Source: Alphaproteobacteria bacterium SS10 (GTDB taxonomy: Bacteria > Pseudomonadota > Alphaproteobacteria > TMED2). Taken from it: a stretch of DNA of 64,000 nucleotides. A program made the position numbers and the translations under genes. The notes beneath the pieces are model-generated. The model searched no databases and had not been told where the DNA came from. It saw only the letters and a list, made by a program, of their open reading frames with translations. Each line of letters begins with the position of its first letter. Positions within the stretch are counted from its first letter, which is position 1. Of this stretch, positions 6,450-14,749 are shown piece after piece. The stretch spans positions 1,452,160 through 1,516,159 of the forward strand of contig JAHCML010000003.1 in the NCBI GenBank assembly GCA_019192455.1, in the 5' to 3' direction.

Positions 6450-7622
6450 ATGCCCGATACCGCAGATCCCGAAAACCAGCTGACAGTTGAGGTCGCACAC
6501 GGCCTCGACCAGATCGACCGCGACGTGTGGGATGCCTGCGCCGGGACCGATAACCCGTTTCTAAGCTACGACTTCCTGCATGCGTTGGAGGCCAGCGGAT
6601 CAGCCACGGCAGATACCGGCTGGTTACCGGCCCATATGCTGATCAAGCGCCCTGTGCATGGCGATGTGGTCGCGGTTGCCCCGCTCTATCTCAAAGGGCA
6701 TTCCCAGGGCGAGTATGTCTTTGACCATGGCTGGGCCCATGCGTTGGAAAGTGCGGGTGGCGACTACTATCCAAAGCTGCAAGGGGCCGTCCCCTTCTCC
6801 CCTGTCACTGGCCCACGGATCCTGGTGCGCCCCGACGCGGACAAGCAATGGCTCTACTACCTTGCCGCGCGTGGGATGGAGCAGATCGGCGAGCGCTACG
6901 ACATCTCCTCAATCCATGTGACCTTCCTAACCGAGGAGGAATGGACAGCCCTTGGCGATGCCGGTTGGCTGCAAAGAACGGGCTGCCAATACCATTGGTA
7001 TAATCAGGGCTATGAGAGTTTTGATGACTTCCTAGGCGCCCTCAATTCCCGCAAGCGAAAGGCCGTACGCAAGGAACGGCGTGAGGTGGCGGAAACCGGC
7101 TTGACCATGCGCCATTTGACCGGCGATGACCTAACACCGGAGGTTTGGGACCGGTTTTTCCAATTCTACCTGGACACCAGTGGTCGCAAGTGGGGCAGCG
7201 CCTACCTAACCCGAGACTTCTTCCACATGATCGGGGAGACGATGGCCGATAAGTGCCTGCTGGTTGCCGCCGAAGATGACGGTGAGATGATTGCCGGTGC
7301 GTTCAACATGATTGGCGGCAACGCCCTTTATGGCCGCAACTGGGGTTGCCTTGATCGGTATAAGAACCTGCATTTTGAGGCCTGCTACTACCAGGCGATC
7401 GATTTCGCGATTGAGCATAAGCTGGAATTGGTTGAGGCCGGTGCCCAGGGTGAACACAAGATCCAGCGCGGCTACCTGCCAACAAAAACCTACTCTGCCC
7501 ACTTCATCTACAACCCACGCTTCCGCGAAGCGGTGGATGACTTCCTAACCCGCGAACGCCCAGCGATTAATCGCCAGATCAAATATCTGGGCGAAGAGAG
7601 CCCTTATAAGCAGGGGGACTAA
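6450..7622 (+). CDS. COG3146 (DUF482) GNAT-fold acyltransferase
   Basis: A 390-residue protein of the COG3146 family, related to the FemX/peptidoglycan-bridge type of double GNAT fold. The visible family features are NPFLSYDFLHALEASGSA near the N-terminus, AVAPLYLKGHSQGEYVFDHGWA, the basic segment LNSRKRKAVRKERREV, and the C-terminal GAQGEHKIQRGYLPTKTYSAH. Members are annotated as N-acetyltransferases, but the substrate is not established. The stop codon overlaps the stop of the convergent CoA-transferase gene by 4 bases (7619-7622). It lies 78 bases after the RidA gene and may share its transcript. Confidence 0.85.
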   Translation: MPDTADPENQLTVEVAHGLDQIDRDVWDACAGTDNPFLSYDFLHALEASGSATADTGWLPAHMLIKRPVHGDVVAVAPLYLKGHSQGEYVFDHGWAHALESAGGDYYPKLQGAVPFSPVTGPRILVRPDADKQWLYYLAARGMEQIGERYDISSIHVTFLTEEEWTALGDAGWLQRTGCQYHWYNQGYESFDDFLGALNSRKRKAVRKERREVAETGLTMRHLTGDDLTPEVWDRFFQFYLDTSGRKWGSAYLTRDFFHMIGETMADKCLLVAAEDDGEMIAGAFNMIGGNALYGRNWGCLDRYKNLHFEACYYQAIDFAIEHKLELVEAGAQGEHKIQRGYLPTKTYSAHFIYNPRFREAVDDFLTRERPAINRQIKYLGEESPYKQGD

Positions 7623-8713
7623 TCCCAGAGCATCAGCGCTGCCTGGCTCGTTAGCTCTCGAACAGGTTGCCGTGTTTGGGGGCCCTTCCCATCGAGCTTA
7701 AGCCCGCTCAACACCTGCCCATCAGCCACCAGCCCTCGTTTGCGAACGTGCTGATGTTCAGTGATCTCGTCCCAACCCAAGACCGGTTCAACACAGCAAT
7801 CGATGTCTTGAAAGACGGCCATCCATTCATCCCGATTTTGGGTAGCAATGATCGAGGCGACCTCAGCCACCAAGCCGGTCTGCGGAAGCGGTCTCTCAAA
7901 CTGCCGTTGGATTAGATCGGTTCTTTCCAGAGCCTCACAGAACCTTGCCCAGAACTTCTCTTCCAGCGCGCCGACGCTTAACCACGCCCCATCCGCGCAT
8001 TGATAGAACTGATAGCAGGCAGCACCACCGCTGAGCAGACCAGCACCGCGTTTGACTGGGTTACCAGCAACAGCCTCAGCCAGGCCAAAGGACTGCCAGG
8101 CGAGCATCGTCTCCATGATGGAGAGGTCGTAGAAACCGCCCTGCCCGCTTTGGCCCGCTTTATGGATGCCAGCCAGCGCGGCAATCGCCACCATCATGCC
8201 GCTTGCCATATCCGCCATCGGTGGGAATGGCGCAACTGGCCGCTCCTCCGTGCCAGAGGCGGCAAAGCTTCCGGCAATCGCACCATAGTTGATGTCGTGG
8301 CCCGCCCGCATGGCATAGGGGCCGGTTTGGCCCCAGCCGGATAGGGCGACATGAACCAATCTAGGATTATCTTCGATCAGCGCGGCATGCCCCAAGCCAA
8401 GGCGGTCCATGGTTCCCGGCCGAAAGCTCTCAACCAGGATATCGGCACGACTGATAAGCTGCTTGGCCTGGCCCAAACCGTCATCGGACTTAAGGTCTAA
8501 GCGGGTCACCACCTTACCGGCATTGATCGCCTGATAGATCGGGCTGTCACCATCACCCTCCTGATCGAGGTGGCGCATGGGGTCACCGCCCGGGGGCTCA
8601 ATCTTGATCACCTCCGCCCCAAGGTCGGCCAGGATCTGCGTGCCATAGGGGGCCGGAAGGTATTGGGCCAGTTCCACAACCCGAACACCGGTCAGCAGCG
8701 AATTTGGTCCCAT
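7619..8713 (-). CDS. CaiB/BaiF family CoA transferase (alpha-methylacyl-CoA racemase-like)
   Basis: A 364-residue class III CoA transferase-fold enzyme. LTGVRVVELAQYLPAPYGTQ and LADLGAEVIKIEPPGGDPMRHL are the N-terminal CoA-binding motifs; GWGQTGPYAMRAGHDINYGAIAG contains the catalytic Asp (GHDINY) region shared with alpha-methylacyl-CoA racemases. The ending LKLDG is usual for family members. The short length and the HDINY box favour racemase-like rather than formyl-CoA transferase activity, but substrate cannot be read from sequence. Start ATG 8713 fits the family N-terminus; the frame runs further upstream through the clpA terminator and clpA tail, which is not coding for this protein. It lies downstream of clpA, separated by a terminator. 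Confidence 0.88.
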   Translation of the reverse strand: MGPNSLLTGVRVVELAQYLPAPYGTQILADLGAEVIKIEPPGGDPMRHLDQEGDGDSPIYQAINAGKVVTRLDLKSDDGLGQAKQLISRADILVESFRPGTMDRLGLGHAALIEDNPRLVHVALSGWGQTGPYAMRAGHDINYGAIAGSFAASGTEERPVAPFPPMADMASGMMVAIAALAGIHKAGQSGQGGFYDLSIMETMLAWQSFGLAEAVAGNPVKRGAGLLSGGAACYQFYQCADGAWLSVGALEEKFWARFCEALERTDLIQRQFERPLPQTGLVAEVASIIATQNRDEWMAVFQDIDCCVEPVLGWDEITEHQHVRKRGLVADGQVLSGLKLDGKGPQTRQPVRELTSQAALMLWD

Positions 8714-8724
8714 GGCCAACAATC

Positions 8725-8759
8725 CCAAAAAAGAAACGGCGGTGAAGCACACCGCCGTT
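8725..8759 (-). terminator. Rho-independent terminator after clpA
   Basis: On the minus strand AACGGCGGTG and CACCGCCGTT form a perfect 10-bp stem (8735-8744 with 8750-8759) around a 5-base loop, followed by CTTTTTTGGG. It lies 40 bases beyond the clpA stop and just before the CoA-transferase start. Confidence 0.9.
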
Positions 8760-8798
8760 CTTAATGCCTTGTCGGTATCAACCGCAATGGGAGCCGAA

Positions 8799-11156
<2,358 letters not shown>

Positions 11157-11283: not shown

Positions 11284-11634
11284 TCACTCCTTCTCCAGTG
11301 TGCATTGGAGCGGGTGTTGATGTTGACGGGCAAAATCCATCACTTGTTGGACCTTGGTCTCGGCGATTTCATAGGTAAAGACGCCGCAGACACCGACGCC
11401 CCGCTTGTGCACATGCAACATGATACGCGTTGCTTCCTCGCGGGTCTTGTTGAAAAACCTCTCGAGAACGTGAACAACGAATTCCATGGGAGTGTAATCG
11501 TCATTCAGCATAAGAACCCGGTACATCGACGGCTTTTTCGTCTTTGTCCTGGTTTTAACGACGACACCGGTACCGCTACCCCCATCATTATCGCCATCAT
11601 CATCGAAGCGATTCGGGTCTGACAGCCGCGGCAT
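11284..11634 (-). CDS. clpS: ATP-dependent Clp protease adaptor ClpS
   Basis: Delivers N-degron substrates to ClpA. The core is present: [25 protein letters not shown] with the substrate-binding NDD and Met residues, the HVHKRG stretch, and the [13 protein letters not shown] region. The chosen start ATG 11634 gives 116 residues with a short acidic/glycine N-terminal tail, usual for the family. The frame is open to 11802, but a good promoter (11808-11836) would start transcription at about 11800, leaving no leader for that start. It precedes clpA on the same strand, the usual alphaproteobacterial arrangement. Confidence 0.93.
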
Positions 11635-12023: not shown

Positions 12024-12809
12024 TTAGCTAGCAGCGACGAACTTGGACACAACTTCGTTCACACGGCTGGCGAGTGGCTCAGCAGCGTCGTTGGCAACTT
12101 TGATCGACATTTCAGAGATCTTGGTGCCTTCAGCGACGAACTGGTCGAAGCTTTTCTTAGCGAGGTCGTTTTGCAGCTCGGTGACTTCTTTGAAGGTTTT
12201 CGCCTTCATCAGAGCCTGGCTAGCAGCAACAGACTGCTCAACAGAGTTTTGAGCGAGGTCGAACATCGCGCGGGTCAGGTCTTCCACACCTTTGGAGAAG
12301 ATTTTGGTGGAAGCGACGACGGCATCGACGTTGTCTTTGCCGAGGCTTTGAAGTTCTTCGAAGTTACCCATAACGTTGGCGTTCATGATCATCATTCCTT
12401 TATCAGAGAAGTAGGGGTTAGCGACTTTCGTCTGCTTGGTAGTGGTCTTGGTTGATTTCGGTGCAGCCTTGGCTGTGGTTGCGCGCTTAACCGGTGCTGC
12501 CTTCTTGGTCACCTTTTTGGCAACTGGCTTCTTAGCAACGGTTTTAGCAGCAGGCTTGGTTGCCTTCTTCGCCGCTGGCTTGGCAGCAGCCTTAACAGGG
12601 CGCTTAGCGGCGGGCTTAGCAGCAGGCTTCGCTTTCGCGGTCACTGGCTTAGCGACTGGCGCCGCAGGCTTTGGAGCCGGGGTTGCAACGGCTGGCGCTG
12701 GCTTCGCAGCCACTGGCGCTGGTGCGGCAGCAGGCTTGGCAATCGGAGCCTTAGCAACAGCTGGTTTGGCAGTCGGCGCAGCCGGCTTCTTGATTGGTTG
12801 TTCGCTCAT
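12024..12809 (-). CDS. Phasin with histone H1-like Ala/Lys/Pro N-terminal region
   Basis: Phasins coat polyhydroxyalkanoate granules. The last 120 residues (from MNANVMGNFEELQSLGKDNVDAV) are a typical phasin domain: amphipathic helices, no Cys or Trp, ending ASRVNEVVSKFVAAS. Residues about 6-130 are a repetitive Ala/Lys/Pro/Val tract (AAKPAAKKATKPAAK and similar), like the DNA-binding tails of PhaF or histone H1, but at the N-terminal side whereas PhaF carries it at the C-terminus. Start ATG 12809 gives MSEQPIKKP. A second start at 12386, with its own ribosome site, would make the phasin domain alone. A promoter with TTGACA lies at 12925-12954. Confidence 0.85.
   Translation of the reverse strand: MSEQPIKKPAAPTAKPAVAKAPIAKPAAAPAPVAAKPAPAVATPAPKPAAPVAKPVTAKAKPAAKPAAKRPVKAAAKPAAKKATKPAAKTVAKKPVAKKVTKKAAPVKRATTAKAAPKSTKTTTKQTKVANPYFSDKGMMIMNANVMGNFEELQSLGKDNVDAVVASTKIFSKGVEDLTRAMFDLAQNSVEQSVAASQALMKAKTFKEVTELQNDLAKKSFDQFVAEGTKISEMSIKVANDAAEPLASRVNEVVSKFVAAS
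12384..12401 (-). promoter_or_regulatory. Internal ribosome site and start codon inside the phasin gene
   Basis: On the minus strand AAAGGA (12396-12401) is followed after 9 bases by ATG at 12386, in frame with the phasin gene. Translation from here gives a 120-residue protein that is exactly the phasin domain, starting as many ordinary phasins do. Two extra in-frame ATG codons lie between. This suggests two products from one gene, with and without the basic tail. Confidence 0.5.
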
Positions 12810-12902
12810 GTTTCTGTCCGTGTCCCGTCTCATACGGTTGTTCTGGTTGCATCGCTCAGCCATCAATCGGATGACCTCACGAGGAAGCTTCTACACCCGA
12901 CC

Positions 12903-12975
12903 TTGCTGCACTGCAACACGACAATGGATATGGGAATGACCTAATTCATGTCAACGGATTTTTTGTGCACCGCAA
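12903..12975 (-). promoter_or_regulatory. Phasin promoter with flanking TGC-rich repeats (possible PhaR operator)
   Basis: On the minus strand a perfect -35 TTGACA (12949-12954) is followed after 17-18 bases by ATATCC/TATCCA (12925-12931). The inverted repeat TTGC-N6-GCAA (12903-12916) lies at the expected transcription start, and TTGCGGTGCA lies just upstream of the -35. The PHA-granule repressor PhaR is known to bind TGC-rich inverted repeats at phasin promoters, so autoregulated control is plausible. The remaining part of the gap to the carboxypeptidase (12976-13144) shows nothing else I can name. Confidence 0.4.
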
Positions 12976-13144: not shown

Positions 13145-14749
13145 ATGACAGATGTCTGCGGTTCACATTTTCATAGTGAAAATCAGGCACTTGGCACCAC
13201 CAAGCCAGGCGCTCGCAAAGCGACAAAACTGCTTTCCGCGGCACTGATTGGCCTGACTGCCATCGCGATAATCGGCCTCGCCCCGCTGAACCAAGCGTTC
13301 GCGAACTCAAAATACGCCTCGATTGTTATCGATGCTTATACCGGTGAGGTGCTGTCATCCGACCGGGCTGATAAACGCCTGTTCCCCGCCTCCCTCACCA
13401 AGATCATGACCCTGTTCATGGTTTTTGAGGCGTTGGAGAAGGGCCAGATCTCACTCGACGAACGCCTACCAGTTTCCAAACGCGCTGCCGGCATGCAGCC
13501 ATCCAAGCTGCACCTCAAGCAGGGCAGCACGATCCGGATGGAAGATGCGATTCTGGCGCTGGTGACCAAATCAGCCAACGATGTGGCGGTCGTCATTGCT
13601 GAACGGCTCGGCGGTTCTGAAATCCAGTTCGCACGGAAAATGACTGAGCGGGCACGCCGCCTGGGCATGGCGAGCACCACCTTCCGTAACGCGAGCGGCC
13701 TGCCAAACCGGTATCAGCGGTCGACGGCACGGGATATGGCCACCCTTGGCCGCGTACTGATCTCTCGCTATCCGGAATATTACAGCTATTTCTCCACGCG
13801 CCGTTTTGAGTATGCGGGCCGCAAGTACCGGAACCACAATCGCCTACTCGGCAGCTATGACGGTGTCGACGGCATAAAGACTGGTTACATCAACGCCAGT
13901 GGCTTTAACCTCGTCGCCTCCGCACAGAAGGATGGCCGCCGCATCATCGGTGTTGTCTTTGGTGGTCGCACCGCCGCCCGCCGTAACAACCACACGGTGA
14001 AGCTGCTGGACCGTGGTTTTGCGACAGCCTCCCGCCGTAACCTTGTCTTGGCTGGCATCCCCCCTATTCCTAAGGCACGCCCATCGAGCACCACCGTTGT
14101 CGCCGCCACCGTGGCAGAGGAGCGGTTGCTGCAGGTAGCCCAGATGCAAAAGCCTGAGTTCGTTGAGAGCCCAGCCACCGCCATCGCCGTTGCTAGCCTG
14201 GCTGAGCGCGCGGCCGTTGCCGAACCACAGCCCGATGTGGCGCCAGAGGATATGCTGACGCTTGAGCCATCGGCGGCTCTAGTGCCCCAACCGAATGAGA
14301 AACCATCGGCGACGCCTCGCCTGGTTGTGGCTGGCTCCGGCCCGTATGTGCAGCCCGATGCCACGCCAAATGGTCAGGGCGATGTCAGCCCGAATGTCGA
14401 TCCTGCGCCAGAGCTTGAGCAGGATCACCCGGTCAACAACGAGATCCCCGTCGCCTCAATCGGAACGGAACCAACGGCCCTCACCAGCCTATTGGGCGGG
14501 TGGAGCATTCAGGTCGGCGCGTTCCGCAGTGAGGATCGCACCAGCGCCGCAATTGCCAAGGCCGTCTCACTGGCGCCTGGCCTGCTGAGCTGGGCCGAGC
14601 CACTAATTAAGCCGATCGTCACGGGTCGTGGTACGCTCTATCGCGCACGCCTTGCGGGCCTCGATAAAGATACCGCACGTGATGCCTGTGATCAGCTTGA
14701 GCGAGCTGGCGTTGGCTGCCTCGCCGTTCGTAACACCACCAGCCAATGA
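13145..14749 (+). CDS. D-alanyl-D-alanine carboxypeptidase with C-terminal SPOR domain
   Basis: A penicillin-binding protein of the S11 family (DacA/DacC/DacF group) that trims the terminal D-Ala from peptidoglycan side chains in the periplasm. A signal segment spans residues about 27-54, ending AFANSKYAS. The three catalytic motifs are SLTK (about residue 83), SAN (about 142) and KTG (about 245). A Pro/Ala/Glu-rich linker (about 310-445) leads to a C-terminal SPOR domain (GGWSIQVGAFRSEDRTSAAI and the end), which binds denuded glycans at the septum. The frame opens with TTG at 13130, but ATG 13145 is a better start. The stop overlaps the next gene by 4 bases (ATGA). Confidence 0.93.
   Translation: MTDVCGSHFHSENQALGTTKPGARKATKLLSAALIGLTAIAIIGLAPLNQAFANSKYASIVIDAYTGEVLSSDRADKRLFPASLTKIMTLFMVFEALEKGQISLDERLPVSKRAAGMQPSKLHLKQGSTIRMEDAILALVTKSANDVAVVIAERLGGSEIQFARKMTERARRLGMASTTFRNASGLPNRYQRSTARDMATLGRVLISRYPEYYSYFSTRRFEYAGRKYRNHNRLLGSYDGVDGIKTGYINASGFNLVASAQKDGRRIIGVVFGGRTAARRNNHTVKLLDRGFATASRRNLVLAGIPPIPKARPSSTTVVAATVAEERLLQVAQMQKPEFVESPATAIAVASLAERAAVAEPQPDVAPEDMLTLEPSAALVPQPNEKPSATPRLVVAGSGPYVQPDATPNGQGDVSPNVDPAPELEQDHPVNNEIPVASIGTEPTALTSLLGGWSIQVGAFRSEDRTSAAIAKAVSLAPGLLSWAEPLIKPIVTGRGTLYRARLAGLDKDTARDACDQLERAGVGCLAVRNTTSQ

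Follow-up and report, generated by a model that had tools for sequence, protein, structure and literature searches.

Comparison of sequences gives good support to the view that a phasin gene of Alphaproteobacteria bacterium SS10 would yield two products from one mRNA. The gene lies in the window, by which we mean the whole stretch of 64,000 nucleotides that was analysed. An earlier note made from these letters had suggested that the gene may give a nucleoid-tethering phasin and a plain phasin, and the two-product half of this reading appears sound, given that the junction start is conserved at the nucleotide level in other families. In the explanation that we consider probable, a single mRNA would begin at a promoter that carries PhaR-type operators and lies upstream of an Ala/Lys/Pro-rich tail, and two in-frame starts on this mRNA would be used. 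The upstream start would yield a long phasin whose basic tail is disordered, and the junction start (ATG 12386 behind AAAGGA) a plain phasin of 120 amino acids. The Phasin_2 domain would enable both forms of the window phasin to coat polyhydroxyalkanoate granules, and the tail of the long form would probably bind a polyanion, most likely nucleoid DNA. If it does bind nucleoid DNA, the number of tethers per granule would be fixed by how often each start is used relative to the other. We infer nucleoid tethering from the composition of the tail and from analogy with PhaF and PhaM.

The window gene and its surroundings

The tract rich in Ala, Lys and Pro that the earlier note saw ahead of the phasin domain was found as described. 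It comprises 141 residues with a net charge of +31 (43 Ala, 31 Lys and 24 Pro by composition count) and is followed by a complete Phasin_2 domain (PF09361, profile positions 1-100 of 100, E = 2.5e-25, 89 bits against a cut-off of 24.9). TIGR01841 was matched as well (49.5 against a cut-off of 30.2). A weak solved-structure match to histone H2B (E = 0.032, residues 79-158, mostly tail) was taken as composition. A 167-aa open frame runs antisense to the tail (12436-12939, plus strand) and is probably an artefact, since Ala, Lys and Pro codons seldom yield stops on the opposite strand.

The internal ATG had been placed within the phasin domain. The ATG and its Shine-Dalgarno (SD) motif are present, but they stand at the junction of tail and domain, nine residues ahead of the Pfam domain and not inside it. 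The ribosome site was rightly called well spaced: in the sequence context of ATG 12386 (GAT AAA GGA ATG ATG ATC), AAAGGA is 9 nt before the start codon, and its predicted duplex (-5.6 kcal/mol, paired stretch to ATG 8 nt) is stronger than that of ATG 12809 (-4.5 kcal/mol). The predicted short form has a net charge of -4. Folding of the RNA around the internal start was unremarkable (z = 0.51). Among the other long ORFs of the window, an SD motif at such spacing precedes 13 of 342 in-frame internal ATGs, and GGA accounts for 54 of 1278 Gly codons and AAA for 149 of 557 Lys codons; the window site taken alone is only mildly unlikely by chance. What makes this candidate site significant is the comparison with other genomes. 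There is a second candidate for the start of the long form, ATG 12863. Its SD is better than that of ATG 12809, its distance below the proximal dyad (about 50 nt) resembles that of the long starts in family f129, and it may be the true long start.

Table 1. Features of the phasin locus in the window.
Feature	Position	Strand	Basis
clpA, conserved neighbour	8799..11156	-	sequence resemblance and synteny with annotated S. meliloti
clpS, conserved neighbour	11284..11634	-	sequence resemblance and synteny with annotated S. meliloti
dac, divergent neighbour, presumably D-Ala-D-Ala carboxypeptidase-like	13145..14749	+	
Long phasin reading frame, 261 aa	12024..12809	-	ORF list, translation, profile match
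Ala/Lys/Pro-rich tail, residues 1-141, net charge +31	12387..12809	-	composition
Phasin_2 domain, residues 151-250	12060..12359	-	coordinates computed from residues
Predicted short form, 120 aa, from internal ATG 12386-12384	12024..12386	-	sequence, SD energy, junction start conserved in relatives
AAAGGA, predicted ribosome-binding site of internal start, 9 nt before ATG	12396..12401	-	sequence, SD energy, same form in f129
Alternative upstream in-frame ATG for long form, SD GAGGT, energy -6.9	12861..12863	-	
TTGACA, likely -35 between both dyads; -10 weak	12949..12954	-	read from sequence
Distal PhaR-type dyad TGCGGTGCA	12966..12974	-	same pattern scan as proximal dyad
Proximal PhaR-type dyad TGCAGTGCA	12907..12915	-	motif type from the available part of PMC12542648

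Downstream of the phasin gene and on its strand lie clpS and clpA; upstream, in divergent orientation, lies a gene whose product we assign from its sequence, presumably correctly, to a D-Ala-D-Ala carboxypeptidase-like family (dac). The phasin-clpS-clpA arrangement, often with dac, recurs across Alphaproteobacteria, and 103 of 143 loci had at least one of clpS, clpA and dac in the vicinity of the phasin, a count over unequal flank lengths in which some loci repeat one place. Next to clpA lies a frame that we take to be CoA-transferase-like (7619-8932, minus strand); as listed, its start falls within the end of clpA, and the real one is probably located downstream of that. The window genome encodes a PHA synthase, PhaC (PhaC_N, 265 bits), PhaR (PHB_acc_N, 109 bits) and another Phasin_2 protein, which lacks such a tail. 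The window phasin itself matches PF09361 and not PF05597, which we take to be the family of the PhaF phasins, and a profile search gave no match to a PF05597 phasin in the window genome.

Known phasins and the role of the tail

According to the portions of the sources at hand, PhaF of Pseudomonas putida binds DNA and localises granules, and PhaI is a folded, functional relative of its N-terminal part (PMC5658603, PMC3574117). Like the proposed long form, PhaF joins a granule-binding part to a basic part rich in Ala, Lys and Pro. The earlier note had remarked that PhaF carries its tail at the opposite end, and the available text agrees: the basic part of PhaF is C-terminal, whereas that of the window phasin is N-terminal. 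Pseudomonas has separate genes, PhaF and PhaI, for the tailed and the tailless form, whereas one gene is proposed to supply both here. PhaM of Ralstonia eutropha, likened to the long form by its description in part of PMC5658603, is phasin-like and attaches PHB granules to the nucleoid.

The closest counterpart by position is PhaP2 of Sinorhizobium meliloti, which likewise adjoins clpS and clpA (phaP2-clpS-clpA) and, in the accessible part of PMC12542648, has PhaR-type operators upstream. The shared locus makes the window gene a positional orthologue of PhaP2. Unlike the window phasin, PhaP2 has 117 aa, no tail and one start; the predicted 120-aa short form is thus about the size of a whole phasin. 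One bacterial gene with two N-terminal forms through an internal start is known from SpaO, ClpB and AerR, as far as the sources consulted in part go; these proteins are unrelated to the window phasin and none of them is a granule protein. No two-start phasin was recognised in the part of the literature that was searched, where some matches were mostly about 'phasing'.

The placement of granules and their sharing between daughter cells have been worked out with tailed proteins such as PhaF and PhaM. A tailed phasin with a conserved second start would, if the explanation is true, be one gene with two roles and a built-in ratio. On balance we would expect the phasin-clpS-clpA locus of many Alphaproteobacteria to be a conserved device of this kind, with a PhaR-controlled mRNA on which two ribosome sites set the ratio of tailed to plain phasin, so that one gene would anchor and coat where Pseudomonas has the PhaF/PhaI pair.

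Both forms could be made and the tail could serve, not as a DNA tether, but in polyphosphate or RNA binding, granule spacing or translation control, a possibility of some weight that we nevertheless hold to be the less probable one. It is favoured by the net charges of other tails, which vary between -10 and +29 among Sphingomonadaceae, are about 0 for two genes of family f36, and are near neutral or acidic for some tails of f61. The histone H1-like protein AlgP, moreover, acts on polyphosphate granules according to the part of the source available. Against this, the window tail is strongly basic at +31, rich in Ala, Lys and Pro, and resembles the DNA-binding part of PhaF as given in the accessible portion of PMC5658603.

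Conservation of the junction start

Conservation was compared across the class Alphaproteobacteria, outside the order of the window genome, and the window site is judged by analogy; on that footing we infer that the internal start would be used in the window organism. A phasin match was found in 143 of 149 Sphingomonadaceae genomes, and 70 distinct genes, from 70 of the matching genomes, were taken for comparison (the 30 best by score and 40 picked down the list). To count as a site, an ATG had to fall 130-155 residues ahead of the end of the domain and to have an SD motif 3-12 nt before it. In family f129, 21 genes gave 20 distinct ones, and the count of 14 tailed genes omits three g240 genes that lack a tail and three genes whose tails are short. 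The earlier note had proposed a comparison of orthologues for the internal start, and in these distant relatives the start proved to be conserved, in 65 of the 70 genes from Sphingomonadaceae (elsewhere in the core, 1 ATG out of 409 has such a motif) and in all 14 tailed f129 genes. One of the five others (L202) has GTG in place of ATG behind AAAGGA, and the remaining four have weaker SD-like stretches. Families f36, f16, f47 and f116 also have the junction site, in 1 to 4 genes each.

An SD-like stretch between tail and domain might instead slow ribosomes or encode a conserved Lys-Glu or Lys-Gly peptide, with the long form as the only product. According to synonymous shuffles of the Sphingomonadaceae genes, in which Lys-Glu and Lys-Asp codons favour the motif, the amino acid sequence by itself would give an SD in 42.9 of 65 genes, so the mere presence of an SD is no argument in that family; the argument is carried by codon phase, by GGA and by the GTG case. 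Each of the three codon phases is represented at the SD (by 53, 11 and 1 genes), the 65 genes together show 58 different heptapeptides there, and the peptides it spells vary (KE, KD, KG, QG, EG, QEF) while the nucleotides are kept. Where it contains a Gly codon, this is GGA in 11 of 11 cases; over the genes as a whole, GGA makes up 8.9% of the Gly codons. Spacing to the start codon is 6-10 nt in all genes but one, and the SD is retained where GTG replaces ATG; ribosome pausing would require no start codon at all. The gene of Sphingomonas parapaucimobilis, with CCCAAGGACACCATC before ATG 147, is annotated as a single 297-aa protein, as would be expected if the long form were made alone. Taken together we regard such exclusive use of the long start as unlikely, and return to the reading in which both starts are used.

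In f129 the amino acids account for less, and shuffles gave an expected SD in 2.7 of 17 genes, a set that includes three ordinary starts. The Lys codon of the SD is AAA in 13 of 14 genes and AAG in the gene using AAGGAG, and at all 12 other invariant Lys columns of the core every one of the 14 genes has AAG. The SD Gly codon is the rare GGA in all 13 tailed genes having Gly there. Start codon and SD are thus kept at the nucleotide level in f13 and f129, and the form and spacing of the window site (AAAGGA, 9 nt, ATG) are matched by 7 of the 14 tailed f129 genes. In L227, L228 and L230 of f129, which are too few for a control, the tail is a vestige of 9-14 codons, and K-G is kept before the second Met as AAAGGC or AAAGGG; their second start may have decayed along with the tail.

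At the level of the class, 145 phasin frames in 143 loci gave 127 distinct phasins, and the one scan of named genomes returned two relatives. By rule, 29 of the 127 have N-terminal regions rich in Ala, Pro and Lys. A junction ATG with an SD motif was present in 10 of these (f1, f13, f129, f36, f16, f116), a weaker site in 4 (f61, f137) and none in 15, including the long tails of f40, f52 and f11, so tail and second start are not inseparable. The long regions without a clear second start are those of L006, L066 and L068 (f40), L036 and L064 (f52) and L028 (f11). L029 and L084 have the arrangement and fall outside the tail rule. On a tree built from 117 columns of 101 phasin cores, in which the window row was left unplaced, the two-start label needs 9 changes, at least two of them forced by well-supported branches.

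The tail frame and its promoter

In all 17 pairs of relatives (7 from f129, 10 from Sphingomonadaceae) dN was below dS in the tail, with ratios of 0.10-0.80, which we use for direction only, since the counts are simple, the alignments of low complexity and several dS values saturated. No in-frame stop was found in 65 Sphingomonadaceae and 14 f129 tails. With the junction start conserved and the tail under selection at the protein level in relatives, neither start appears to be a mere annotation artefact. Exclusive use of the internal start, with the tail frame as leader RNA that stays open by chance and an annotation that is too long, is very improbable: the long-start SD is weaker than the internal one in f129 (medians -4.5 and -5.5) and in the window, but the selection on the tails, their lack of stops, the composition kept over a family and the at least equally good long-start SDs of Sphingomonadaceae (median -6.1) speak against it.

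The two window dyads are 59 nt apart, and a generic promoter scan upstream of the gene gave no promoter at its threshold. In S. meliloti, according to the available part of PMC12542648, two copies of the PhaR site flank the -35 of phaP1 and phaP2. All 65 Sphingomonadaceae genes and all 14 f129 genes have a PhaR-type pattern in the 250 nt ahead of the long start, and the 250 nt ahead of the internal start contain it in 2 and 6 of them, respectively. The pattern also stands ahead of the start in 51 of 56 tailless genes, and intragenic control stretches had it in 1 of 65 and 1 of 56 cases. Being upstream of the long start and rare within the gene, it makes the tail most likely part of the mRNA.

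Two phasin genes of sphingomonads were seen on plasmids. That of S. parapaucimobilis (L262, 1446-2339) is tailed, has the junction start and lies beside phaC, and that of Novosphingobium (L263, 1959-2390) encodes a tailless protein of 143 aa and lies beside phbB.
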